Shown piece after piece: positions 2,856 to 31,018 of a stretch of DNA of 36,675 bases (position 1 is the stretch's first letter; every line of letters starts with the position of its first letter). The stretch lies in NCBI GenBank assembly GCA_003151415.1, contig PLXK01000129.1, forward strand, positions 5,618-42,292. Direction: 5' to 3'. The notes beneath the pieces are model-generated. The model did not search any database, had not been told where the DNA came from, and saw only the letters and a program-made list of their open reading frames with translations. The position numbers and the translations under genes were made by a program. The DNA is from Bacteroidota bacterium. Its GTDB lineage: Bacteria; Bacteroidota; Bacteroidia; Palsa-965.

Positions 2856-3959
2856 ATGAATCCGAATCTTACAATCACCCCAATCAAGGAATGGCTCCCG
2901 GGCATCAAGCGCCCCCTTGTTATCAGTGGCCCCTGCGCTGCTGAAACAGAGGAACAAGTTTTGCAGACGGCAAGAGGCATTGCCAAACTCAACAGAGTCA
3001 GTGTTTTCCGGGCGGGTGTCTGGAAACCCCGCACTAGACCCAATGCTTTTGAAGGGGCAGGAAACAAAGCGCTGCCCTGGCTCCGGCAAGTCAAAGCCGA
3101 AACCGGACTGCTTACTGCCGTGGAAGTGGCCCGGGCAGAACATGTGGAAGAAGCCTTGAAGCATGGCATCGATATTTTATGGATTGGAGCCCGCACCACG
3201 GTCAACCCTTTCTCGGTTCAGGAAATTGCTGAAGCACTAAAAGGCACAAATGTTCCGGTGATGGTGAAAAATCCTGTTCATGCCGATGTCCAGTTGTGGA
3301 TCGGTGCCCTGGAGCGTGTCAACCAGGCTGGAATCACCAAACTGATTGCCGTGCACCGTGGTTTTTACACCTCAGATAAAACACAATACCGAAACATTCC
3401 CCGCTGGGAAATACCCATCGAGCTTCAGACTCTTTGTCCGGATCTGCCTGTTGTCTGCGACCCCAGTCACATCTGCGGCCGTACGGATACCCTTCAGGCC
3501 GTTGCCCAGAAAGCCCTGGATCTGAATATGGCCGGACTGATGATCGAGTCGCATATCCACCCGGCCTCGGCACTGAGTGATGCGGCCCAGCAGCTGACAC
3601 CGGATGCGCTCGGATCGCTGCTAAACGCTCTTTCTGTACGCGATGTGTGTTCGGAAAACAAGGCCTTTACCGATAAACTGGAATCGCTGCGACTCATCAT
3701 CGATGAAATTGATGAAAACATCGTTCGGAACCTGGCGCACCGCATGGCTGTTGTCGGCCAGATTGGCGAATACAAACAAGACAACAACGTCACCGTTTTC
3801 CAGATGGAACGCTGGCTCGAAATACTGCGCTCCAGAATAGCTTCAGGTGTTGTTCATGGACTGGATGAATCGTTCATGAAAGAGTTGTGTGAGCTGCTCC
3901 ACAAGGAATCCATCCGCAGGCAAACGGCCATTCTGGAAGTGAGAAACCGGAATCTTTAA
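2856..3959 (+). CDS. Bifunctional DAHP synthase / chorismate mutase
   Basis: A 367-residue fusion enzyme. Residues 1 to about 255 form a type I-beta 3-deoxy-7-phosphoheptulonate synthase, which condenses phosphoenolpyruvate with erythrose-4-phosphate at the first step of the shikimate pathway. Recognisable segments are LVISGPCAAE (21-30), FRAGVWKPRTRPNAFEG, VMVKNPVH, AVHRGFY and the metal-site region VVCDPSHICG. From about residue 270 onward comes an AroQ-type (all-helical) chorismate mutase with the usual LRLIIDEIDENIVRNLAHR start, which turns chorismate into prephenate. This domain order is known in Bacteroidota such as Porphyromonas and Prevotella, where the mutase domain also mediates allosteric inhibition by prephenate. 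The start codon follows a purine-rich AAAGGA about 17 bases upstream. No other shikimate genes are adjacent. Confidence 0.95.
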   Translation: MNPNLTITPIKEWLPGIKRPLVISGPCAAETEEQVLQTARGIAKLNRVSVFRAGVWKPRTRPNAFEGAGNKALPWLRQVKAETGLLTAVEVARAEHVEEALKHGIDILWIGARTTVNPFSVQEIAEALKGTNVPVMVKNPVHADVQLWIGALERVNQAGITKLIAVHRGFYTSDKTQYRNIPRWEIPIELQTLCPDLPVVCDPSHICGRTDTLQAVAQKALDLNMAGLMIESHIHPASALSDAAQQLTPDALGSLLNALSVRDVCSENKAFTDKLESLRLIIDEIDENIVRNLAHRMAVVGQIGEYKQDNNVTVFQMERWLEILRSRIASGVVHGLDESFMKELCELLHKESIRRQTAILEVRNRNL

Positions 3960-6835: not shown

Positions 6836-8824
6836 CTATTTAAGAACGATCCGTCCCAGCAGCGCTGAAAATATTTTCTTTGCCTTGATCAGCGAATGTT
6901 GTTCCTCGAGCAGAATAAGCTGCTCTTCCCAGTTCCCGCTTTCTTTCATGCGTTTCTGGTTGTCGTGAATCATCATTTCAATTTTACGGATCTTTAAGGC
7001 ATACATGGCATGAGCGGCACTTTGCTTGAGGTTCATGCTTTCAAGCTGTATGCCAATGCTGTGTTTTTCCCAGTTGGCGAGCGAGTAGGGGCTGCTCAGG
7101 ATATTGACAACAGTTGTTGATATTTCCGGATCGGGATGCTGTATGAAATAGTTGGCATCTGGAACATCTTCCTGTTTTTGAATAAATTCCTGGAATATTT
7201 TGAGATAAACGGGGTTCTCTATTTCAATATTGTCTTTCTGGATTTCATAAATAATGTATTCGCACACGCTGTATTCTTCTTCCGTTTTTTCTCCGGCCTC
7301 GTTCTCGGCTTCTATTTTGAGTTTCTCTTTCCCGAAATTGATCAAGATGCGGATGATGTCCTTCTCCTGATGTTCGGCGCTGGACTCATCGATTTTATAA
7401 ACCGCTTTTTCTCCTTCAGCGAAATGCAGGAGCTCTTCCGGAACCTGGTTTTCTTTTTCTTCCTGTCTTTGTGCGTCGGGCTGTTTTTTTCGTCGGAGTT
7501 TATTCAGTTCCGAAAGCAATGCCTGCTCGTCCACATCCATAATCCGGCTGCATTCCTTGATGTATACAGAGCGGTAGATGGGTTCGGGAATCAGGGAAAT
7601 GCTTTCCACGATTTCCTTGATGAGGCCCGCTTTCTTAATCGGGTCGTGCGAGGATTCGTTGTACAGCAACTGCGCCTTGAAAGCAATGAAGTCCTGCGTC
7701 TTCTCTTTGATGAACGTTTTCAGTTCGGCGCCGCTTACCTTTTTTGAAAACGAATCGGGGTCTTCTCCATCGGGGAAAAGAAGCACCCTCACATTCATGC
7801 CTTCGGTGAGTACAAGGTCTATGCCCCTGAAACTGGCTTTGATACCGGCGCTGTCGCCATCAAAAAGGATGGTGATGTTTTTTGTGTAGCGCTGAATCAG
7901 GCGGATCTGGTCTACGGTAAGCGCTGTGCCCGAAGAGGCCACTACGTTTTCGATACCGGCCTGATGCATGGAAATGACATCGGTGTATCCTTCCACAAGG
8001 TAACAATTGTCTTCTTCGGCGATTTTCTTTTTTGCAAAGTAAAGGCCGTAGAGAACCTTGCTTTTGTGGTAAATATCGGTTTCGGGAGAATTGATGTATT
8101 TGGCGATCTTCTTGTCTGTCTTCAGCGTTCTTCCGCCAAAAGCAATGATCCGGCCGCTGACATTGTGCACCGGGAAAATGACACGCGCAGAAAAACGATC
8201 AAAGAAACGCGGCTGATTGTCTCTTGTGCCCGGCTCTGCGGGTTCGTTATTTTCTTTCGAAATGGTTAGTCCCGCCCTGACCAGATAATCAAGTTTATGG
8301 CCGGCCTTGATGGCAGCATCGCTGAAGCCGCGCCATTGATCGAAGCTGTAACCGAGCTGGAACTTCTGAATGGTCTGATCGGTAAATCCGCGCTGATGAA
8401 AATAGCCCAGGCCCACAGATTTGCCTTCATCGCTGTCCCAGAGGTTTTCTGAAAAGTTTTTTTGTGCAAAGGAGCAAACGACATAGAGGCTTTCGCGTTC
8501 GTTATTGGCGGTAAGCTGTTCGGGCGTTTGTTCTTCTTCCTCAATGGCAATGTTGTATTTTTTGGCCAGCCAGCGCAGGGCTTCGGGGTAGCTCAGCTGT
8601 TCGTGATCCATGATGAAATTCACGGAGTTCCCGGCTTTGCCGCAACCAAAACATTTGTAAATGCCTTTTGCCGGGGAAACATTGAACGAGGGAGTTTTCT
8701 CGTTGTGAAAAGGGCAAAGACCGATCAGGCTCGCACCTCTTTTTTTAAGGGCAACAAATTCACCAACCACCTCGTCAATACGGGCAGCCTCAAATATGGA
8801 GGAGATGGTTTCTTTCGGGATCAT
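6836..8824 (-). CDS. dnaG: DNA primase DnaG
   Basis: A 662-residue replicative primase that makes RNA primers at the replication fork. The N-terminal CHC2 zinc finger has Cys37, His40, Cys58 and Cys61 (LCPFHNEKTPSF ... KCFGCGKAG). The RNA-polymerase core includes RFFDRFSARVIFPVHN (206-221). The TOPRIM catalytic site shows EGYTD (278-282), DGDSAG (322-327) and DGEDPDSF (352-359). The C-terminal part, from about residue 380, is helical and would bind the DnaB helicase. The start ATG overlaps the stop of the upstream MORN_2 lipoprotein gene as ATGA (4 bases), which indicates translational coupling and co-transcription. Confidence 0.98.
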   Translation of the reverse strand: MIPKETISSIFEAARIDEVVGEFVALKKRGASLIGLCPFHNEKTPSFNVSPAKGIYKCFGCGKAGNSVNFIMDHEQLSYPEALRWLAKKYNIAIEEEEQTPEQLTANNERESLYVVCSFAQKNFSENLWDSDEGKSVGLGYFHQRGFTDQTIQKFQLGYSFDQWRGFSDAAIKAGHKLDYLVRAGLTISKENNEPAEPGTRDNQPRFFDRFSARVIFPVHNVSGRIIAFGGRTLKTDKKIAKYINSPETDIYHKSKVLYGLYFAKKKIAEEDNCYLVEGYTDVISMHQAGIENVVASSGTALTVDQIRLIQRYTKNITILFDGDSAGIKASFRGIDLVLTEGMNVRVLLFPDGEDPDSFSKKVSGAELKTFIKEKTQDFIAFKAQLLYNESSHDPIKKAGLIKEIVESISLIPEPIYRSVYIKECSRIMDVDEQALLSELNKLRRKKQPDAQRQEEKENQVPEELLHFAEGEKAVYKIDESSAEHQEKDIIRILINFGKEKLKIEAENEAGEKTEEEYSVCEYIIYEIQKDNIEIENPVYLKIFQEFIQKQEDVPDANYFIQHPDPEISTTVVNILSSPYSLANWEKHSIGIQLESMNLKQSAAHAMYALKIRKIEMMIHDNQKRMKESGNWEEQLILLEEQHSLIKAKKIFSALLGRIVLK

Positions 8825-9309
8825 TTTTTTGCCGGGAGGCTTGTTTCTTTACCGGTTCCATAATCTTCATCATGGTTCAGGCTGCCATCGGTATTGTAAT
8901 ACAGCCATTTGCCCACCATGACGCCTTCTTTATAAGTGCCTTCATACATTTTTTGACCCGATTCAAAATATACGGTCGCCTGGTGATCGCGCTTGCCGTG
9001 GGTGAAAAAGCCTTCACTCTGTATTTTCCCCGAAGGAAAGAAAGCGGCCCATTCTCCCTCGCGCTTGCCGTTGATGTAAAAGCCTTTCATCTGAATGACA
9101 CCGTTGGGATAACGCATCGTGAAATCACCGTCTTTCAGGGTATCGAAGCTGGCCCTGGGTTCAGCAATGGCAGGCTTGGAAGCCTTTGGCTCTGGAGTCG
9201 GACTTGTTTTGACGGCATCGTCTTTTTTCTTTTCCGGACTTCCCGGCGAGCAGGAAAGAAGCAGTAAAGCGGATGAAATGGCGATAAGGGCTGACCGTAA
9301 TGTGCGCAT
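8821..9309 (-). CDS. Lipoprotein with MORN_2-type repeats
   Basis: A 162-residue predicted lipoprotein. The N-terminus MRTLRSALIAISSALLLLSC ends in a lipobox with the lipidated Cys at residue 20. A Lys/Pro/Glu-rich linker (about 21-58) follows. Residues 60-150 hold about four 22-24-residue repeats of the MORN_2 type (YPNG.IQMKGFYINGKREGEW; FPSGKIQSEGFF; FESGQKMYEGTY; NTDGSLNHDEDY). Automatic pipelines often name such proteins YwqK-family antitoxin, but nothing here shows a toxin partner. The role is unknown; the likely location is membrane-anchored in the periplasm or outer membrane. The gene sits 17 bases after the prenyl synthase and overlaps dnaG by 4 bases, so it is in the middle of an apparent operon of essential genes. 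Confidence 0.85.
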   Translation of the reverse strand: MRTLRSALIAISSALLLLSCSPGSPEKKKDDAVKTSPTPEPKASKPAIAEPRASFDTLKDGDFTMRYPNGVIQMKGFYINGKREGEWAAFFPSGKIQSEGFFTHGKRDHQATVYFESGQKMYEGTYKEGVMVGKWLYYNTDGSLNHDEDYGTGKETSLPAKK

Positions 9310-15523: not shown

Positions 15524-16249
15524 TCAGGACAAGAGGCTAAGGTCGTCGGAATGATTGGCCTTGTTTGAAGAACTCAGAACACGTTTGTTTTTCAAAAGCG
15601 CATCGGCAATAATCAGGTCCTTGGGTGTTGTTACCTTGATATTGTCTGAGTTCCCGTCGATGAGATGGATTTTTTCTCCAATTGCTTCCACAATACTTGC
15701 GTCATCGGTAAAGGTGTATTTGTATTCCTGTTCATATCCTTTTTTCAGGATTTTTGTCAGAAAGCATTGGGGTGTTTGTGTGGCGCAATACTTGGTCCGG
15801 TCAACGGCAATGCTGAGCCCCGAATCGATCTGACGGATCGAATCCGTGATTGGAATGGCGGGAACTGCATTGCCATACATTTCGGTTGTTTTGAAGGCTG
15901 TCTGAATGGTCTTGATGCTCACGAGCGGTCTTGCCGAATCGTGCACACCCACAATGCCCTCTTCGGTGACAAGGGCAAGTCCCTTTTTAACTGAATGAAA
16001 ACGCGTTTCACCTCCGGTGGTGAGAGCGTGCGGAATTTGAAAGTTGTATTCGCTGCACAATTGTTTCCAAAAATCGATCTGATCCTGGCGAAGCACAACG
16101 ACGATTTCAATTTCCGGGTCTGCTTCGGCGAATTTGGAGATGCTGTGCATGAGTACAGGTTTGCCGTCGAGCAGCATAAACTGTTTGGGAACGGGAGTAT
16201 TCATCCGTGTTCCGCTGCCTCCACCCACAATAATGACGTATTTTTTCAA
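15524..16249 (-). CDS. ispD: 2-C-methyl-D-erythritol 4-phosphate cytidylyltransferase IspD
   Basis: The third step of the MEP isoprenoid pathway: it joins methylerythritol 4-phosphate with CTP to form CDP-ME. It has 241 residues. The nucleotide-binding start VGGGSGTRM (8-16) and PKQF (21-24, with the catalytic Lys22) are intact, as are GVHDSARPL and the later VTTPKDL. The start must be the TTG at 16249: an in-frame stop lies four codons upstream and the next Met (residue 16) is inside the nucleotide loop. AAGGGA immediately precedes the TTG. The tail after ADALLKN (about residues 218-241) is a polar extension. It converges on the amidohydrolase gene with 29 bases between the stops. Confidence 0.95.
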   Translation of the reverse strand: MKKYVIIVGGGSGTRMNTPVPKQFMLLDGKPVLMHSISKFAEADPEIEIVVVLRQDQIDFWKQLCSEYNFQIPHALTTGGETRFHSVKKGLALVTEEGIVGVHDSARPLVSIKTIQTAFKTTEMYGNAVPAIPITDSIRQIDSGLSIAVDRTKYCATQTPQCFLTKILKKGYEQEYKYTFTDDASIVEAIGEKIHLIDGNSDNIKVTTPKDLIIADALLKNKRVLSSSNKANHSDDLSLLS

Positions 16250-16289
16250 TCCCTTAAATTATGTTGATTCGCCGCAACCGCGTTTGTTG

Positions 16290-16297
16290 CAAAAGTA
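16290..16297 (-). promoter_or_regulatory. -7 box for ispD
   Basis: The minus strand reads TACTTTTG, an exact TAnnTTTG match, 40 bases upstream of the TTG start at 16249. It abuts the hairpin at 16296-16338. No -33 TTG at standard spacing. Confidence 0.45.
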
Positions 16298-16338
16298 AAA
16301 TCCCGGGAGGTTCCTTGTGGGTTCTTTCCGGGATTTTA
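16296..16338 (-). terminator. Hairpin between queA and ispD, possible terminator
   Basis: Arms 16296-16308 and 16326-16338 (TAAAATCCCGG core) pair over 13 positions with one G-T wobble and a 17-base loop. On the minus strand the second arm ends in T-rich sequence (TTTTACTTTTGC). It lies 130 bases past the queA stop and just before the ispD -7 box, so it could end queA transcription. An operator upstream of ispD is the alternative. Confidence 0.45.
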
Positions 16339-16409
16339 TCAACGCTCTTTTCAACAGTTACACTTAGATGGCGTGATTTTAAGAATTTTCCGCCGCTGTA
16401 TATTGTGTT

Positions 16410-16441
16410 TCAGGCGAGCCTGACTCCCGCGAAGAGCGGGA
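16410..16441. repeat. Two tandem short hairpins after queA
   Basis: TCAGGCGAGCCTGA (16410-16423) folds on itself. Directly after it, TCCCGC (16425-16430) and GCGGGA (16436-16441) form a second stem with loop GAAGA. They lie 25-55 bases past the queA stop. On the minus strand the T-run comes before, not after, the hairpins, so they do not look like a standard terminator; they may stabilise the 3' end of the queA transcript. Confidence 0.4.
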
Positions 16442-16465
16442 AAAAATTGACGAAGAAACAGGACA

Positions 16466-17515
16466 TCAGAGAATGAGCATAGCATCACCGTAGCTGTAAA
16501 AACGGTATTTGTCTTTTATGGCTTCTTTGTATGCTTTCATGACCAGGTCATACCCGCCAAAAGCACAAACCTGCATAAGAAGCGTGGATTCGGGCATATG
16601 GAAATTGGTAACCATGCAATTGGCCACGCTGAATTCATAAGGAGGAAAAATAAACTTGTTGGTCCAGCCGGCGTATGGCTTCAAAAATCCTTCCACAGAA
16701 ACCGATGTTTCAATGGCGCGCATGGTTGTAGTCCCAATGGCGCAAATCTTCCGTTTTTCAGCTTTCCCCTTATTGACGATGTCGGCGCACTGCTGGGTGA
16801 TGATGACTTCCTCGGAATCCATTTTGTGTTTTGTCAGGTCTTCGACCTCGACGGGACGGAAGCTGCCAAGGCCTGTATGCAAAGTCAGCTGGGCGAAGCT
16901 CACTCCTTTTATTTCCAGTTTCTTGAGCAATTGTTTGCTGAAATGCAAGCCGGCAGTAGGGGCAGCAACGGCTCCTTCAATCTCGGCATAAACAGTCTGG
17001 TATCTTTCGGCATCCTCAGGCATAACACCGCGTTTGATGTATTTGGGCAGGGGTGTTTGTCCGAGTGTTTCGATTGTTTTCTTGAATTCTTCGTAAGGGC
17101 CGTCGAACAGGAAGCGAAGCGTTCTGCCGCGGGAAGTGGTGTTGTCGATCACTTCAGCAACAAGCATGTCGTCGTCTCCGAAATAAAGTTTGTTGCCGAT
17201 ACGGATCTTTCTGGCAGGATCCACCAGAACATCCCAGAGCCGGCTGTCACGGTTGAGTTCGCGAAGAAGAAAAACTTCAATTTTAGCGCCTGTTTTTTCT
17301 TTGTTTCCATAAAGGCGGGCAGGAAAAACCTTGGTGTTGTTCAGGATCATCACATCCTTGTCGTCGAAGTAATTGATGATGTCTTTGAATTTTTTGTGCT
17401 CGATCTTGCCTGTTTTGCGGTGAAGAACCATCAGTTTGGCTTCGTCACGGGTTTTGGCGGGATGTTCGGCCAACAGCTCTTTGGGTAAATTGAATTTGAA
17501 TGCTGAAAGTTTCAT
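16466..17515 (-). CDS. queA: tRNA preQ1 ribosyltransferase-isomerase QueA
   Basis: QueA transfers and isomerises the ribosyl group of S-adenosylmethionine onto preQ1 at tRNA position 34, giving epoxyqueuosine. The ATG at 17515 gives 349 residues beginning [20 protein letters not shown], the normal family start (the P-x-x-L-I/L-A motif). Codons further upstream to 17728 would overlap truB and are not conserved. Other family segments are [40 protein letters not shown] and [16 protein letters not shown]. It follows truB on the same strand but with 136 bases and its own good promoter between, so it can be expressed separately. Confidence 0.97.
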
Positions 17516-17558
17516 AAATCTTACGGGATTTGTTAACGGTTTAGTAATACAAAGGGCG

Positions 17559-17589
17559 CAAAGATACACATCCGGAGAGCGAAAGTCAA
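17559..17589 (-). promoter_or_regulatory. Complete Bacteroidota promoter for queA
   Basis: On the minus strand, -33 TTG (17589-17587), a 20-base spacer and the -7 box TATCTTTG (17566-17559) match the consensus well. Transcription would start near 17552, with a leader of about 40 bases to the ATG at 17515. It lies in the intergenic gap after truB. Confidence 0.7.
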
Positions 17590-17651
17590 TGGTTTGCGCG
17601 TTTATATTATGGATTGCTTCTGTGCGTGGTTTGCAGAGGGAAAAAAAAGGT

Positions 17652-18419
17652 TCAGCCGTGTTCCGGCAAAGGGTCGGTAACGGTGGGGGCAGAACCCGAT
17701 CCCTGACATTGTTCTTCAAAGGTTTCAATGGTCAGGGCATCGCTCAATACGTAGGTGCCAATGCGGGTCCGGCAAAGGGCGGTCAGATGTGCCCCGCTGT
17801 TCAGGGCCAGCCCCATGTCTCTGGCCAGGGAACGGATATAGGTGCCTTTGCTGCAGATCACACGAAAAGAAACGTCCTGTCCGTTTATAGCTGTAATCTC
17901 AAATTCAGAAATGGTAATGGTTCGGGATTTGATTTCAGCTTCTTTTCCCGCTCTGGCCAATTTGTAAGCTCTTTTGCCTCCAATCTTGATGGCCGAAAAA
18001 AGGGGGGGTATTTGCTCCTGGGTGCCGACGAATTTGGTGGCGGCTTCTAAAATGAGGGATTCGGTAATGTGCGCGGTCGGGAAATGGAAATCGACTTCTT
18101 TCTCCAGGTCAAAACAGGGGGTTGTGGCGCCCAGCCTGAACGTTCCAGTGTATTCTTTTTCCTGGGCCTGGTACAGATCAATGTTTTTTGTTTCTTTCCC
18201 GGTGCAGACAATCAGCAGCCCGGTAGCCAGAGGATCCAGGGTGCCGGCATGACCCACTTTAATTTTAGGCTTTTCCGTGGGATTGGCTGAAATCTCCTTC
18301 AGCTTTTTGCGGATACTGATTTTGAGCTTGTTGACAGCGTCGAATGAAGTCCAGCGGTAAGGTTTGTTGATCAGGAGTACTTCCCCCTTTTGGAAGTCGA
18401 AGTGTCTTTGGTTTTTCAT
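17652..18419 (-). CDS. truB: tRNA pseudouridine-55 synthase TruB
   Basis: It converts U55 of the T-loop of tRNAs to pseudouridine. It has 255 residues. The family start [20 protein letters not shown] (12-31) is followed by the catalytic [12 protein letters not shown] with nucleophile Asp62. [18 protein letters not shown] and [15 protein letters not shown] are also conserved. The ATG at 18419 is needed, since no later Met precedes the conserved start. That places the first 155 bases of truB inside the uppP reading frame (another frame, same strand). The C-terminus (after [13 protein letters not shown]) is short and ends in a Pro/Glu-rich tail. Confidence 0.96.
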
Positions 18420-19206
18420 CTTGCAGTTTTAAACCCGTGCTGAGTGCGTAAATCAGAAAAAGGATACCCAGTCCGATGCGGTAATATCCAAAATGCTTGA
18501 ATCCGTATTTGCTCAAAAAAGCAATGAATCCCTTTACGGCAAAAATTGCCACGAGAAAGGCAATGGCGCCACCCAGACCCAAAACCATCAGGTTGTCTTT
18601 GTGGATAGAACCATGATTTTTGAATAGCTCATAACCGGAAGCGGCAAACATTGTCGGAATTGCAAGAAGAAACGAGAATTCGGCAGCTTGTTTTCTGTCA
18701 AAGCCCTGTGAAACCCCTCCAAGGATGGTGGCTGCCGAGCGCGATACGCCTGGAATCATGGAAAGACACTGAATAAGACCGATTTTGAATGCCCCCGCAA
18801 TGCTCATCGACTCGGTACCCGCATAAGCAGATCGTTTGCGGCCAGACCATTTGTCCAGGATAATGAGCAGGATGCCTCCAATAACCAGGGAAGAACTGAC
18901 CACATAAGGATTCATCAGTTTTTCCTTGATTATTTTATAGGCAAGAAAACCGATGATGCCCGTAGGCAGAAAAGCAACGGCCAGTTTGATGTAAATGTCC
19001 AGACTGACAAAAAAACGTTTGATGTACAAAGCAAAGACGGCAAGAATGGCACCCAGCTGGATAACGATTTCAAAAGTTTTGGCGAATTCGGCATCCTGTA
19101 TTTTCAGCAGGCTGTCGGCAAGAATCATGTGGCCGGTTGACGAAACAGGAAGAAATTCAGTTAATCCTTCAATGATAGCAAGGATGACAGACTGGAGTAT
19201 AGTCAT
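18265..19206 (-). CDS. uppP: Undecaprenyl-diphosphatase UppP (BacA type)
   Basis: An integral membrane enzyme that dephosphorylates undecaprenyl diphosphate, recycling the lipid carrier for peptidoglycan. It has 313 residues with about eight membrane segments. The catalytic first motif EGLTEFLPVSSTGH (13-26, Glu13/Glu17/His26) and the second motif PGVSRSAAT (152-160, Arg156) are intact. The family normally ends near residue 265, as in RIGLGILFLIYALSTGLKL here (243-261). This ORF continues 52 residues into truB in a different frame, with a hydrophilic tail unlike the family. Either a stop was lost at the gene end or translation truly extends; a sequencing error is possible. The start is 53 bases after DUF3098. 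Confidence 0.95.
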   Translation of the reverse strand: MTILQSVILAIIEGLTEFLPVSSTGHMILADSLLKIQDAEFAKTFEIVIQLGAILAVFALYIKRFFVSLDIYIKLAVAFLPTGIIGFLAYKIIKEKLMNPYVVSSSLVIGGILLIILDKWSGRKRSAYAGTESMSIAGAFKIGLIQCLSMIPGVSRSAATILGGVSQGFDRKQAAEFSFLLAIPTMFAASGYELFKNHGSIHKDNLMVLGLGGAIAFLVAIFAVKGFIAFLSKYGFKHFGYYRIGLGILFLIYALSTGLKLQDEKPKTLRLPKGGSTPDQQTLPLDFIRRCQQAQNQYPQKAEGDFSQSHGKA

Positions 19207-19259
19207 GGGCGGGTACTGGGGTTATAAAATGGGAGAAGAATCAGATAGGGAAAAAACGC

Positions 19260-19505
19260 TTATTCTTGTTCTGCTTTCGGTTTTTTCATGATTCCAAGAA
19301 GGACCGTGATGTATCCGGCAAGGATACAAATGGGCGCTACGGTGATCCTGCGGGTACTGAAAATTTCAGGGTTGAATTTGTTGGGGTCATCAGAACCGCC
19401 GCCCGACATGAGCATGAGTCCGATCACAACCAGTGCAGTGCCAGCAATGAGGTAAGTATAATTCTGTTTGTTAAAGGCAAATCCTTCTTTTTTCTTTTCG
19501 CTCAT
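19260..19505 (-). CDS. DUF3098 small membrane protein
   Basis: 81 residues with two membrane helices (about 18-34 and 53-72) joined by a polar loop with GGGSDDPNKFNPEIFS. The loop, the preceding AFNKQNY and TRRITVAPICILAGY match the DUF3098 pattern that I know from Bacteroidota. The function is unknown. It sits between ftsX and uppP, 151 bases after the ftsX stop and 53 bases before uppP, an arrangement I recall as common in the phylum. An accessory role at the division site or in the envelope is an inference from context only. Confidence 0.85.
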   Translation of the reverse strand: MSEKKKEGFAFNKQNYTYLIAGTALVVIGLMLMSGGGSDDPNKFNPEIFSTRRITVAPICILAGYITVLLGIMKKPKAEQE

Positions 19506-19656
19506 GACCTAATGTTTAATCTGTAAAATGGATATCAAAAAAACAAAGAATGCTGAATGGGCTGTTAACATTGTAATTCAAGCAGATAAACGCAATGCCG
19601 TACCTTCCAGGCTCCCCTCCGGCATCAGCTTGCTTACAGCTCATGTTTGATTGCGG

Positions 19657-20532
19657 TTAGTAATACAACTCGCTTGTCCGGATTCGAAGATATTTATGTA
19701 CCGCAAACCAGGTACAGATAAATCCTATCAAAATTCCTAAAAATACCAATGCGCCGGACAAGATGCCCAATAAATTTATATCCAGCAGCATATTCACCAG
19801 GAAAGGGAATACCTTTTCGAGGAGGTAAAAGAAGCCCAGTAGCATGAACAGGGAGATAATGGCCCCATAAATGCCCTGAATTATTCCGGTAAGAAGAAAG
19901 GGTTTGCGGATAAAACCTTGTGTGGCTCCAACGAGTTGCATGGTCCTGATCAAAAAGCGTTTGGAGTAAATGGCCAGTCTGATGGTGTTGTTGATCAGCG
20001 CAATGGCAATAAGCAGGAGCAGGCCGGTAAAAATGAGAATGACAATGCTCACGGTGCGTATATGGCTGTTCACGGCGCTCACATGGGCTTCTTTGTAATC
20101 CACATCGGCAACCAGCCCTTTTTTGTCCTGCAGGTCTTTGCGGATCCAGTTGATGCTGTCGTTGTTGGCGTATTCGGCTTTGAGGTAGATATCAATGGAA
20201 GAAGGCAGGGGGTTGTACCCGATGGAATTGACAAAATCTTCACCGAGTTCCTTGCGGAAATTGTCGGCGGCGCTCTTGGCCGAGGTAAAGGTGGTGGAAC
20301 GCACGTATCTCGTTGCATCCAGCGATTTCTGGAAGGCCATCACATCGGCTTCCTTGGCATCCGGATTCAGGTAAATGGATACCATGATGTGTTCTTTGAC
20401 GTAATCAGTCACTTTCTTGGCGCTGAGTACGACCATGGCCAGCAGGCCAACCATAAACAGCACCAGTGAAATACTGATCACCGTGGTGATTGAGCTGGAT
20501 TGAAGCCTCCTTTTGGTGTATTTATCTGACAC
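19657..20532 (-). CDS. ftsX: Cell-division ABC transporter permease FtsX
   Basis: The permease subunit of FtsEX, which couples ATP hydrolysis at the division site to activation of peptidoglycan hydrolases. It has 291 residues: a cytoplasmic start, a first membrane helix (about 17-37), a large periplasmic domain (38 to about 165) and three C-terminal helices. The family signature IRTMQLVGATQGFIRKPFLL follows the second helix. The start is a GTG at 20532; I found no in-frame ATG nearby upstream, and MSDKYTKRRLQSSSITTVIS is a normal FtsX start. FtsE is not in the window. It is the first gene of the run to DUF3098, uppP and truB. Confidence 0.95.
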   Translation of the reverse strand: MSDKYTKRRLQSSSITTVISISLVLFMVGLLAMVVLSAKKVTDYVKEHIMVSIYLNPDAKEADVMAFQKSLDATRYVRSTTFTSAKSAADNFRKELGEDFVNSIGYNPLPSSIDIYLKAEYANNDSINWIRKDLQDKKGLVADVDYKEAHVSAVNSHIRTVSIVILIFTGLLLLIAIALINNTIRLAIYSKRFLIRTMQLVGATQGFIRKPFLLTGIIQGIYGAIISLFMLLGFFYLLEKVFPFLVNMLLDINLLGILSGALVFLGILIGFICTWFAVHKYLRIRTSELYY

Positions 20533-20640
20533 AGGATACGATTTGGATACTAAAATCGGAAGAATTCGGTTCTTTCATCCGGCAAAACAAGACTAGTTGT
20601 TAACACCGCACTATGAATACAGGGGGCTGAAAAACAAGTT

Positions 20641-20687
20641 GGCAATTTGCAATGGGCAGTTTGCAAAAGGGAAACAATTTTTGCCCA
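20641..20687. repeat. Short direct repeat and weak hairpin upstream of ftsX
   Basis: Two 14-base units follow each other at 20641-20654 and 20655-20668; their first 12 bases, GGCAATTTGCAA and GGCAGTTTGCAA, differ by one base. TGGGCA (20653-20658) and TGCCCA (20682-20687) are inverted around the second unit. They lie in the 174-base gap between the SCO protein stop and the ftsX start, a gap where I see no clear -7 box for ftsX. Confidence 0.4.
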
Positions 20688-20706
20688 CTGTGAATGGCCG
20701 GCTTTT

Positions 20707-21348
20707 TCACTTATAACTTAAAACCAGTTGCTCAATGTCCACCATCAGCCTGCTTACCGCTTCCGGATCGGTTCCGTCATAAAAACCGCGGATGTGCTTT
20801 TCCTTATCGATCAGAGCGAACTGTTCGGTGTGCACAAAATCGTCGCTGCCTCCGTTGCCCTCGGTTGCGGTAACCAGGTAAGAATGACGGGCCAGATTAT
20901 AGAGTTGTTTTTTGTCGCCCGTCAGAAAAAACCATTTGTGCGGATCGGCTCCGTGAAGCTGCGCGTATTTGGCCAGACTTTCCACGCTGTCACGCAATGG
21001 ATCGACAGAATGGGAAACGATCATGACCGTAGGATCGTTTTTGAAACGCTCCTGCACACGTTCGAGTTGTGTGCTCATTTTCGGGCATATGTTTTTGCAG
21101 TTGGCGAAAAAATAATCTGCAACATATATTTTTCCTTTCAGATCTTTTTGTGTGATTGTTTTTCCTTCCTGGTTAATCAGTGAAAAATCCATGACCGTGT
21201 GAAAGATCGTGTCGCCGCCGGTTTCAGCTATTTTGTCGCCATAATACGGAAGTGTTTTTGCCGGCCTTTTGATGAATGAAAAATAAATCCCGATGCTTAG
21301 AGCAATAAGACCGGCAAAGATGAGCAGTATATTCGTTTGCTTTTTCAC
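20707..21348 (-). CDS. SCO1/SenC family copper/thioredoxin-like protein
   Basis: A membrane-anchored periplasmic thioredoxin-fold protein of the SCO family, which delivers copper to the CuA site of cytochrome c oxidase or acts as a thiol oxidoreductase. With the GTG start at 21348 it has 213 residues (MKKQTNILLIFAGLIALSIG), with an N-terminal anchor helix at about 6-24. The copper ligands are present: Cys84 and Cys88 in FANCKNICPK, and His173 in DDFVHTEQF. A TTG at 21375 would add nine polar residues and cannot be excluded. It lies 53 bases after the MORN_2-repeat protein gene on the same strand, probably co-transcribed. No oxidase genes are in view. Confidence 0.92.
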   Translation of the reverse strand: MKKQTNILLIFAGLIALSIGIYFSFIKRPAKTLPYYGDKIAETGGDTIFHTVMDFSLINQEGKTITQKDLKGKIYVADYFFANCKNICPKMSTQLERVQERFKNDPTVMIVSHSVDPLRDSVESLAKYAQLHGADPHKWFFLTGDKKQLYNLARHSYLVTATEGNGGSDDFVHTEQFALIDKEKHIRGFYDGTDPEAVSRLMVDIEQLVLSYK

Positions 21349-21401: not shown

Positions 21402-22175
21402 TTATTTCTTGATTTCTTCTCCTTTTTTGTATTTCTGAAGAAGAACTTTTCCTTCCTCGTTGTAGTTCTTCCAGGTTCCTTCTTCCTTGTCATCAACAAA
21501 ACGGCCCTCGGTTTTCAGTTTCCCGTTTTCGTAATAGACTGTATACGGACCCTGTCTCATGTTGTTTGTGTATAAAACCTCCGATTCCCTTTCCCCGCTT
21601 TTGTAATATGTGGTCTGAACCCCATCCAGGTTTCCATTGTTGTAAACGCTCTTTGTATTTGGTTTCCCCTCCACATAGTACCATACGAAAACACCGTTTC
21701 TCACATCGTTCAGATAGGTTCCTTCTTCCTGAAGCCTTCCATCGGGATTGTAAATCCGTCTGGTGCCGTTTAGTTTTCCATTTTTATAGCTGATTTCAGA
21801 TTTTAACCGTCCTCCTCCGTAAAAGGCTCTCGATCGGCCATCAAGCACTCCGTCAACATAATACGATTCGCCCAGAAAGGTTCCGTTACGGTCTATGGTA
21901 ATGCTGATTCCGTTTTTCAACCCTCTTTTGTAGGAATCGATCATCCCGAGCAAGCCGCCCGGATAATAGGCCGTCCAGCTTCCTTCTTTGCGGTCGTCCA
22001 GGTAGCTTCCGTACCAGGTAACGGCCGCTTCAGAAATTTTCCAGAAACCTTGTTTACGGTTATTTGCGTCCACCCGGTTGGTATCTGGACCGGCAGAGGG
22101 GGGCACAAGGGCCGTATTTTGAGCTGTTCCCGCAATGGCAGGAAGAAGAAAAAGGAAAAAAAGAATGTGCTTCAT
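21402..22175 (-). CDS. Exported MORN_2-repeat protein
   Basis: 257 residues from the ATG at 22175. MKHILFFLFLLPAIAGTAQ is a signal peptide, so the protein is exported. From about residue 38 to the end it is built of roughly nine tandem 22-23-residue repeats of the pattern ...YYxNGxLxxEGxYxNxxRxGxW (for example YENGKLKTEGRFVDDKEEGT; YNPDGRLQEEGTYLNDVRNG). This is the MORN_2 type, often auto-named YwqK antitoxin without evidence. Such beta-hairpin repeats form an elongated sheet, and no catalytic residues are seen. The more upstream GTG at 22202 would put a polar stretch before the signal peptide and is rejected. It leads the SCO gene. Confidence 0.85.
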   Translation of the reverse strand: MKHILFFLFLLPAIAGTAQNTALVPPSAGPDTNRVDANNRKQGFWKISEAAVTWYGSYLDDRKEGSWTAYYPGGLLGMIDSYKRGLKNGISITIDRNGTFLGESYYVDGVLDGRSRAFYGGGRLKSEISYKNGKLNGTRRIYNPDGRLQEEGTYLNDVRNGVFVWYYVEGKPNTKSVYNNGNLDGVQTTYYKSGERESEVLYTNNMRQGPYTVYYENGKLKTEGRFVDDKEEGTWKNYNEEGKVLLQKYKKGEEIKK

Positions 22176-22257
22176 GTGAAAAGAGTTTGTTTTAATAGTC
22201 ACATGCCCGGCTGACCCCAGGGCAGGGTGTTTTATCTGATGATTCGGATAGCGGAGA

Positions 22258-28528: not shown

Positions 28529-31018
28529 ATGAATTACGCCATCACTGAACTGTCTGCCGTTATTTCCGCCAAAATCTTTGGCAATGAAAATGCTGTGGCC
28601 AGTATTGATGACCTGCTCATTGACAGCCGTAAACTGATCCAGCCTGAAGCCTCTCTTTTTTTCGCCATTCGGGGCGACCGTCATGATGCGCACCGGTTTA
28701 TCAAGGATTTGTACGAGAAGGGTGTCCGCAATTTTGTGGTTTCTGCCTTGCCTGCCGCACTGATGGATTACCCGGCTGCGAGTTTTTTACTGGTTGAAGA
28801 CACTTTGCTGGCTCTCCAGGAACTGAGCGCCTGGCACCGGAAGCATTTCCATATTCCTGTAATTGGCATCACGGGCAGCAACGGAAAAACGATCGTCAAA
28901 GAGTGGTTGTACCAACTCCTGAGGGAAGATAAAAACATTGTCCGCAGCCCCAAGAGTTTCAATTCGCAGGTGGGTGTTCCCATATCCGTCTGGCTGATGC
29001 GGCCCGAACACGAGCTGGCCATTTTCGAAGCCGGCATATCCATGCCCGGAGAAATGGAGCATCTCGAAAAGATCATTGCTCCGACAATCGGACTCATCAC
29101 CAATATCGGGCAGGCTCACGATGAGAATTTCAGTTCGCTGAGACAAAAAGTGGAGGAAAAGCTCAAACTTTTCGTGCATTCTCAAATTGTATTTTATTGC
29201 AAGGATTATACAGTTATTCAGCAAGCCATTCAGGATACCAGAGAAGAAGAAATGCCCAGGTTATTCTCCTGGTCGGCCAGGACGAAAGCTGATCTCCAGG
29301 TCGGAAAAATAACAAAGAGTGTGTCCGATTCTGAAATCCAGGCGGTTTACAAAAATGAATTCATACGGATAAAAATTCCGTTCACCGACGAAGCGAGTAT
29401 CGAAAATGCCATTCACTGCTGGTGCGTGATGTTGCATCTGGGCTATGAAAATGAGATCATAGCCGCCAGAATGCTTTTTCTCAGTCCGGTGGCCATGCGG
29501 CTCGAGCTTAAGGAGGGCATCAACAACTGTTCAATCATCAACGACAGTTACAATTCGGACCTGGGTTCGTTGAGTATAGCACTTGATTTTTTAAATCAGC
29601 AAAAACAGCATCCGAAAAAGACCTTGATTCTGTCGGATATTCTGCAAAGCGGAAGAACAGAAGAGAGCCTTTATAAAGAAGTGTCGGAACTGGTCAGCCG
29701 CAAAGGAATCAGCCGGATTATCGGCATTGGCGAAGCCATATCGCACCAAAGTGAACAGTTTCAAACCGAGCGCAGTTTCTATTCGTCGACAGCTGATTTT
29801 CTCAGGCATTATAACAATTCATTTTTCAGGGATGAAACCATACTTTTAAAGGGAGCCCGCAGTTTCGGATTCGAAGACATCAGCAAAGTGCTGCAGCAGA
29901 AAGCCCACGAAACGGTAATGGAGGTCAATCTCAGCGCGATTGTACACAACCTGAATCATTACCGCAAAAAATTGAAGCCGGATGCGAAGATCATGGCCAT
30001 GGTCAAGGCATTTTCCTATGGCAGCGGAAGTTTTGAAATTGCCAATGTGCTGCAGTTTCATCATGTCGATTACCTGGCCGTGGCTTATGCCGATGAAGGC
30101 ATTGAACTTCGAAAGGCCGGAATTTCAGTGCCCATCATGGTCATGAATCCCGAAGAACAAAGCTACGACAGCATGATCCAGTTTAGTCTGGAACCCGAGC
30201 TGTTCAGTTTCCGTGTGCTGGGTTTGTTTGATGAAGCGGTAAGGCGCAACAAAATTCTTCTTGAAAGCGATCGCAAGGTAAACGTGCATATCAAACTTGA
30301 CAGCGGAATGCACCGTCTGGGCTTTGAAGAAAGAGAAATCAATGAATTGATTGTTCGTCTCCGCAACAACAAAAACCTTCGTGTCCGATCTGTTTTTTCA
30401 CACCTGGCCGGCAGTGACGAAGCCGAACACGACGATTTCACACAGCTTCAGATCAACCGCTTTGATACAATGAGTTCGGCCATTATGCAGCATTTCGATT
30501 ATCCGATTTTGCGGCACATCCTGAATTCGTCGGGAATTTCCCGTTTTGCTGCCGGAACATTTGACATGGTGCGTCTGGGTATTGGTCTTTATGGCATTGG
30601 AACCAATGAAGAAGAGCAGGCTCTGCTTCAGAATGTGAATACACTGAAAACCACCGTTTCGCAAATCAAACACATACCCAAGGGAGACAGCATCGGATAC
30701 AGCCGCAAGGGATTTGCCAGCCAGCCCATGACTATCGCCACGGTTCCGATTGGTTATGCTGACGGCTTGAGCCGAAAGCTGAGCAATGGAAAAGGAAAAA
30801 TGTTTGTGGGGGGTAAATTTGCCCCGGTAGTTGGCAATGTGTGCATGGATATGTGCATGATTGATATCACCAATATCACTGTCAATGAAGGCGATGAGGT
30901 GATTGTTTTCGGAGAGCAATATCCGATTACACAAATTGCGCGCGATTTGGGAACCATTCCGTACGAAGTGCTGACCAATGTTTCGCGCAGGGTGAAACGG
31001 GTTTATTTTCAAGAGTAA
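28529..31018 (+). CDS. murF-alr: MurF / alanine racemase fusion
   Basis: A single 829-residue protein with two steps of peptidoglycan precursor synthesis. Residues 1 to about 460 are MurF, which adds D-Ala-D-Ala to UDP-MurNAc-tripeptide: DSRKLIQPEASLFFAIRGD (32-50), the ATP loop GITGSNGKT (113-121), NSQVGVP and NDSYNSD (338-344). Residues about 463-829 are a PLP-dependent alanine racemase that makes D-Ala: Lys493 in MAMVKAFSYG binds PLP, HIKLDSGMHRLGF (587-599) follows, and the second catalytic Tyr724 is in SIGYSRKG; C772 and M773 lie in VCMDMCMIDI. This fusion is known in Bacteroidota. Both active sites look intact. No split or frameshift is seen. Confidence 0.97.
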   Translation: MNYAITELSAVISAKIFGNENAVASIDDLLIDSRKLIQPEASLFFAIRGDRHDAHRFIKDLYEKGVRNFVVSALPAALMDYPAASFLLVEDTLLALQELSAWHRKHFHIPVIGITGSNGKTIVKEWLYQLLREDKNIVRSPKSFNSQVGVPISVWLMRPEHELAIFEAGISMPGEMEHLEKIIAPTIGLITNIGQAHDENFSSLRQKVEEKLKLFVHSQIVFYCKDYTVIQQAIQDTREEEMPRLFSWSARTKADLQVGKITKSVSDSEIQAVYKNEFIRIKIPFTDEASIENAIHCWCVMLHLGYENEIIAARMLFLSPVAMRLELKEGINNCSIINDSYNSDLGSLSIALDFLNQQKQHPKKTLILSDILQSGRTEESLYKEVSELVSRKGISRIIGIGEAISHQSEQFQTERSFYSSTADFLRHYNNSFFRDETILLKGARSFGFEDISKVLQQKAHETVMEVNLSAIVHNLNHYRKKLKPDAKIMAMVKAFSYGSGSFEIANVLQFHHVDYLAVAYADEGIELRKAGISVPIMVMNPEEQSYDSMIQFSLEPELFSFRVLGLFDEAVRRNKILLESDRKVNVHIKLDSGMHRLGFEEREINELIVRLRNNKNLRVRSVFSHLAGSDEAEHDDFTQLQINRFDTMSSAIMQHFDYPILRHILNSSGISRFAAGTFDMVRLGIGLYGIGTNEEEQALLQNVNTLKTTVSQIKHIPKGDSIGYSRKGFASQPMTIATVPIGYADGLSRKLSNGKGKMFVGGKFAPVVGNVCMDMCMIDITNITVNEGDEVIVFGEQYPITQIARDLGTIPYEVLTNVSRRVKRVYFQE

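Follow-up and report, generated by a model that had tools for sequence, protein, structure and literature searches.

Why the reading frame of uppP, a gene encoding an enzyme of cell-wall recycling, in the contig PLXK01000129.1 of an uncultured member of the Bacteroidota does not stop at the usual end of its family, but overlaps the following truB gene, on the same strand and in another frame, by 155 bases, is the question raised by this locus: a stop codon might have been lost, the sequence might be wrong, or the extension might be a translated tail coupling both genes. The window analysed here is a stretch of 36,675 nucleotides of this contig (positions 5,618 to 42,292), in which the 313 codons of uppP and its overlap with the truB start at 18419 had been given with correct coordinates and lengths by the first-pass annotation, and in which the continuation of the frame for 52 codons beyond the motif YALSTGLKL to 18265 was confirmed. 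This motif corresponds to codons 253–261 and comprises the last family-like residues of the protein (Table 1).

Table 1. Features at the uppP-truB junction and its flanks (positions in the window)
Feature	Position	Strand	Remarks
uppP (undecaprenyl-diphosphate phosphatase, BacA family)	18265..19206	-	313 codons, extension included; ATG to TAA
Family-like part of uppP, ending in YALSTGLKL	18424..19206	-	261 codons; alignment with 73 relatives
CAA codon 262, putative lost-stop site	18421..18423	-	same-genus contig G002 has TAA there
uppP extension	18265..18423	-	52 codons plus stop TAA at 18267-18265; truB start read one frame off
truB (tRNA pseudouridine-55 synthase), intact	17652..18419	-	255 codons, ATG at 18419; TIGR00431 192.6 bits (cut-off 151.45)
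DUF3098 gene, upstream of uppP	19260..19505	-	PF11297, 3e-29
ftsX, upstream	19657..20532	-	under NCBIfam cut-offs, over Pfam cut-offs
queA, downstream of truB	16466..17515	-	family match from ATG 17515, not from the TTG of the longest ORF

With respect to the gene neighbourhood, the longest queA open reading frame (16466–17728, minus strand; 420 codons from TTG 17728) overlaps truB by 77 bases, but this overlap is a start-site artefact because the family match begins only at residue 72, i.e., at ATG 17515. No Rfam family was found at gathering score in the region from 16000 to 21000, and no terminator-like site between 17300 and 19500, by which an RNA element or terminator at the uppP-truB junction was ruled out. 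Elsewhere in the window, a single open reading frame of 829 codons (28529–31018, plus strand) combines a Mur ligase middle domain with both alanine racemase domains, MurF-Alr fusions being usual in Bacteroidota; a DAHP synthase is fused to a type II chorismate mutase (2856–3959, plus strand); and MORN_2 repeats occur in two separate open reading frames (8821–9309 and 21402–22202, both minus strand).

Both curated scores and conserved residues place the uppP product in the UppP/BacA family. It reaches 275.3 bits with NF001390 (cut-off 260), 266.3 with NF001389 (cut-off 262), 218.8 with TIGR00753 (cut-off 217.5) and 245.8 with PF02673 (cut-off 33.4; residues 7–249), nine further subgroup models match it below their own cut-offs, and 29 columns are invariant in an alignment of 74 rows, the window included. 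However, members of the family end a few residues past the last membrane helix, and here 52 more codons follow. The best family matches extend to residue 255 with NCBIfam and to residue 249 with Pfam, and 70 of the 73 aligned relatives, which were taken from 108 passing a length filter (235–300 residues, no internal stop), have no letter at all past query residue 266, the aligner having put at most four end letters beyond it in the remaining three; the unfiltered set of loci gives the same ends. In comparison with the solved BacA/UppP structures (PDB 5oon, 6cb2), residues 3–246 match in two stretches, whereas the 52 extra C-terminal residues have no counterpart. An AlphaFold model based on 74 sequences has pLDDT values of 85–98 per ten-residue block up to residue 260 and of 40–55 past it, although a low value is to be expected for a tail covered by no relative and says little alone. 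In line with its earlier description as unlike the family, the tail (8 K+R, 6 D+E) has no family match in Pfam or NCBIfam, and as no aligned relative covers it either, a conserved domain was ruled out.

The search for UppP covered 59 genomes of relatives (the window's own being among the 59), 12 genomes from the same family and 395 from the same class, with matches in 54, 10 and 368 of them, respectively; among named genomes, 414 stretches encode a UppP relative, of which the best 80 were kept. The ends of uppP were measured in those loci for which DNA was fetched, a minority of the 368 matched class genomes. From 118 such loci, after removal of two running off a contig end and five repeats, 111 distinct uppP sequences were obtained, the window among them; counted from the equivalent of residue 258, the latter continues for 55 residues and none of the 110 others for more than six. 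A tail conserved in all relatives, which the first-pass annotation had considered as a trait that would be ordinary for the clade, was accordingly found in no relative measured, nor was a long overlap common to other species found among them. Further 20 stretches, of which 19 contained uppP (nine newly measured genomes with listed open frames of at least 296 codons, and ten measured already), likewise yielded only normal ends of at most five residues. A truB start codon could be identified in 50 other tandems; relative to the uppP stop it lies at -4 to +30 in 42 of these, while two have it at -8 and six at +36 to +211. Tight spacing of uppP and truB is the rule and the 155-base overlap the exception, and within the measured sample the extension is private to this genome. 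Since no relative checked shares the overrun, it is most likely no new device but an ordinary mutation private to this genome, or else an error in the sequence.

Of the family-like part of UppP (18424–19206, minus strand) it can further be said that it is 63–76% identical to sequences from several other families of the class and only 46–54% identical to those of the eight matched genomes from other genera of its own family; judged by these identities, and with the short uppP end visible in the congener G002 (13 residues) also resembling the other type, the gene has possibly been replaced horizontally.

The junction can be compared directly with that of two congeners. In the sister genome G001, the UppP of which is 80% identical and the uppP sequence of which is that of PLYR01000074.1 (palsa_965), the gene ends with TGA and the truB ATG follows 7 bases later; carrying the match on through the tail frame, one meets six stops (four TGA, two TAA). 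At its junction, G002, a contig from the same genus, has CTG TAA A ATG, compared with CTG CAA G ATG in the window. Only 44 bases of this contig precede the truB ATG, so that no more than the final 13 residues of uppP are visible and G002 gave no UppP match; in the third congener neither uppP nor truB was found. With the end in G002 resembling another UppP type, the correspondence between its TAA and the CAA of the window is suggestive rather than strict. The distances from stop to ATG in G001 and G002, i.e., 7 and 1, are both 1 modulo 3 and the window keeps the same register, so that no frameshift or missed base is required. An extra base before ATGA would have given the common 4-base overlap, but the missed base at the end of uppP suggested by the first-pass annotation was set aside, because the offset between the two frames already equals that in both congeners.

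It is thus very probable that the stop codon which the relatives keep just upstream of truB was lost here, and that the frame overruns the first 51 codons of truB up to the next chance stop. This loss, one of two readings offered in the earlier annotation, is well supported by G001, the G002 contig and the other loci. Most simply, a single T-to-C change at 18423 would have converted TAA into CAA in a normal gene of 261 residues, an exact base change that we infer from the sequences compared. Alternatively, about 9 bases including the old TGA might have been deleted in frame: from the last UppP leucine codon to the truB ATG there are 4 bases in the window and 13 in G001, a difference by a multiple of three, and the G001 stop, being 6 bases more distant from the truB ATG, would fit a 9-base in-frame deletion, too. 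This route is nevertheless rather unlikely given that the 4-base spacing occurs in G002 together with TAA, that a stop at codon 262 yields 261 residues, a length also seen in another locus (L005), and that the spacing between uppP and truB varies widely among relatives. As a sub-case of the stop loss, the real uppP might also end normally, the assembly being wrong in a single base or in some short stretch that keeps the frame. It is a fragmented draft, 84.5% complete and in 268 contigs, a single wrong base would be enough, all relatives measured stop normally, and such cases were classed as probable errors by Palleja et al. in 2008 (PMC2478687). On the other hand, the junction lies mid-contig with nearby base runs of just 4–5 A, and queA, ftsX, ispD, the dnaG N-terminal domains and polyprenyl synthetase match almost their whole profiles unbroken. 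Moreover, in 251 kb of this assembly (20 stretches and the window), for which a crude ORF calling gave 188 accepted ORFs and 151 same-strand neighbour pairs, 70 of these pairs overlap or lie less than 100 bases apart, but no second extension of such type was seen: three overlaps measure at least 60 bases, the downstream frame scores higher only in uppP-truB, and in the remaining two the downstream ORF seems to have been started too early. With one such overlap in 251 kb, the sampled assembly is therefore not littered with lost stops. An error is a substantial possibility, yet a real mutation appears somewhat more probable. Accordingly, the counter-case named in the first-pass annotation, i.e., relatives stopping at about 18425 combined with a sequencing error here, holds for its first half, and its second half may apply.

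The extension itself is N-terminal truB DNA read one frame off, and what has to be weighed is whether it might nonetheless be a functional, selected tail with translational coupling to truB. In favour of selection, its 52 codons are open, whereas among 5000 synonymous shuffles of truB only 1.5% stay open for at least 51 codons in this frame once it is entered, a figure that also counts against a mere stop loss. The same frame is open for at least 51 codons from the start in two of 51 other truB genes, and a run of this length is unusual but not extraordinary, and one that a single stop loss could meet by chance. In the truB genes of relatives L013 and L115 the frame is open for as many as 181 and 94 codons, respectively, and a stop loss there would yield even longer overlaps. 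Within the overlap, codon usage favours the truB frame: the score per codon is 0.139 for the truB frame and -0.007 for the uppP frame, compared to a mean of 0.236 (sd 0.091) in 78 true-frame windows and of -0.186 (sd 0.106) in 78 windows taken from the same wrong frame. The tail thus scores below 77 of the 78 true-frame windows but above 76 of the 78 wrong-frame ones; it is less noncoding-like than average, which again counts against the stop-loss reading. However, the tail is absent from the relatives measured, G001 has its six stops in the same frame, no Pfam or NCBIfam family matches, the structural model is of low confidence, and termination-reinitiation coupling acts over very short distances (PMC10666635), so that a selected tail of this kind is extremely unlikely. 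The meaningful translated tail with a coupled truB, which was the other reading of the first-pass annotation, hence finds no support in any relative or family, its DNA being out-of-frame truB. That there is no real overlap at all because truB starts further downstream has a negligible probability: mispredicted starts are indeed what most commonly gives rise to long overlaps in annotations (PMC2478687), but the truB N-terminus encoded upstream of 18265 is conserved, aligning to the sister genome G001 from residue 4, and the family match begins already at residue 14, and a mis-started truB was ruled out by these alignments.

If the lost stop is real, the tail must be translated, as the uppP frame contains no earlier stop. 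In E. coli, the C-terminus of BacA is periplasmic, and a beta-lactamase fused to its last residue is active while the fusion complements a temperature-sensitive bacA strain (PMC4641660); the same side was proposed for the C-terminus in the paper on the BacA crystal structure (PMC5852022). A floppy tail is therefore probably tolerated, and by this analogy a UppP carrying it in the periplasm would probably still work. Stop-start coupling, in turn, is strongly distance dependent and falls off within tens of bases, as observed in experiments in which gaps, not overlaps, were lengthened (PMC10666635). With the uppP stop 155 bases beyond the start of truB, one would expect classical coupling to have disappeared here rather than arisen, and truB to rely on initiation of its own. 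A scenario in which the stop loss is fixed in the species, every UppP bears a 52-residue basic periplasmic tail, the first 51 truB codons are translated in two frames, and uppP ribosomes overrun the truB start and thereby throttle TruB in place of stop-start coupling is, as a whole, very unlikely. If fixed and real, the locus would offer a small natural test of what becomes of a downstream gene once stop-start coupling is removed. In any case it advises caution, as a conserved enzyme that is 20% longer in a draft genome may reflect a private mutation or an error.

With regard to known systems, a functional long overlap would be expected to keep both overlap and tail across species, which was not seen for uppP-truB in the relatives measured. 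A literature search by title and start of abstract, with most subscription journals outside its coverage, returned no paper on a uppP-truB overlap in Bacteroidetes. Lengthening of the upstream gene at its 3' end is a known origin of long overlaps, a class to which Palleja et al. assigned 68 of 715 co-directional overlaps of more than 60 bases (PMC2478687). In their category iii the upstream gene is longer than its orthologs at the 3' end, as is uppP with 55 residues compared to at most six in the 110 others, and the downstream gene is ortholog-like in length and start, as is truB; from what that survey gives on this class, the present case differs in no point of substance, being the uppP-truB pair of a draft genome. 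According to a model published in 2013, overlaps arise by elongation of the upstream 3' end twice as frequently as by elongation of the downstream 5' end, and long ones are mostly in phase 1 (PMC3887535). Like the unidirectional overlaps attributed there to stop disruption, the uppP-truB overlap is in phase 1, as assigned by the series -8, -11, -14 (PMC10666635), which is the prevailing phase among long overlaps, but with 155 bases it exceeds the 60 bases above which the model placed selection against overlaps. The uppP-truB overlap is a further example of this known class, and a clean one of how a long same-strand overlap may arise from the loss of one stop codon.
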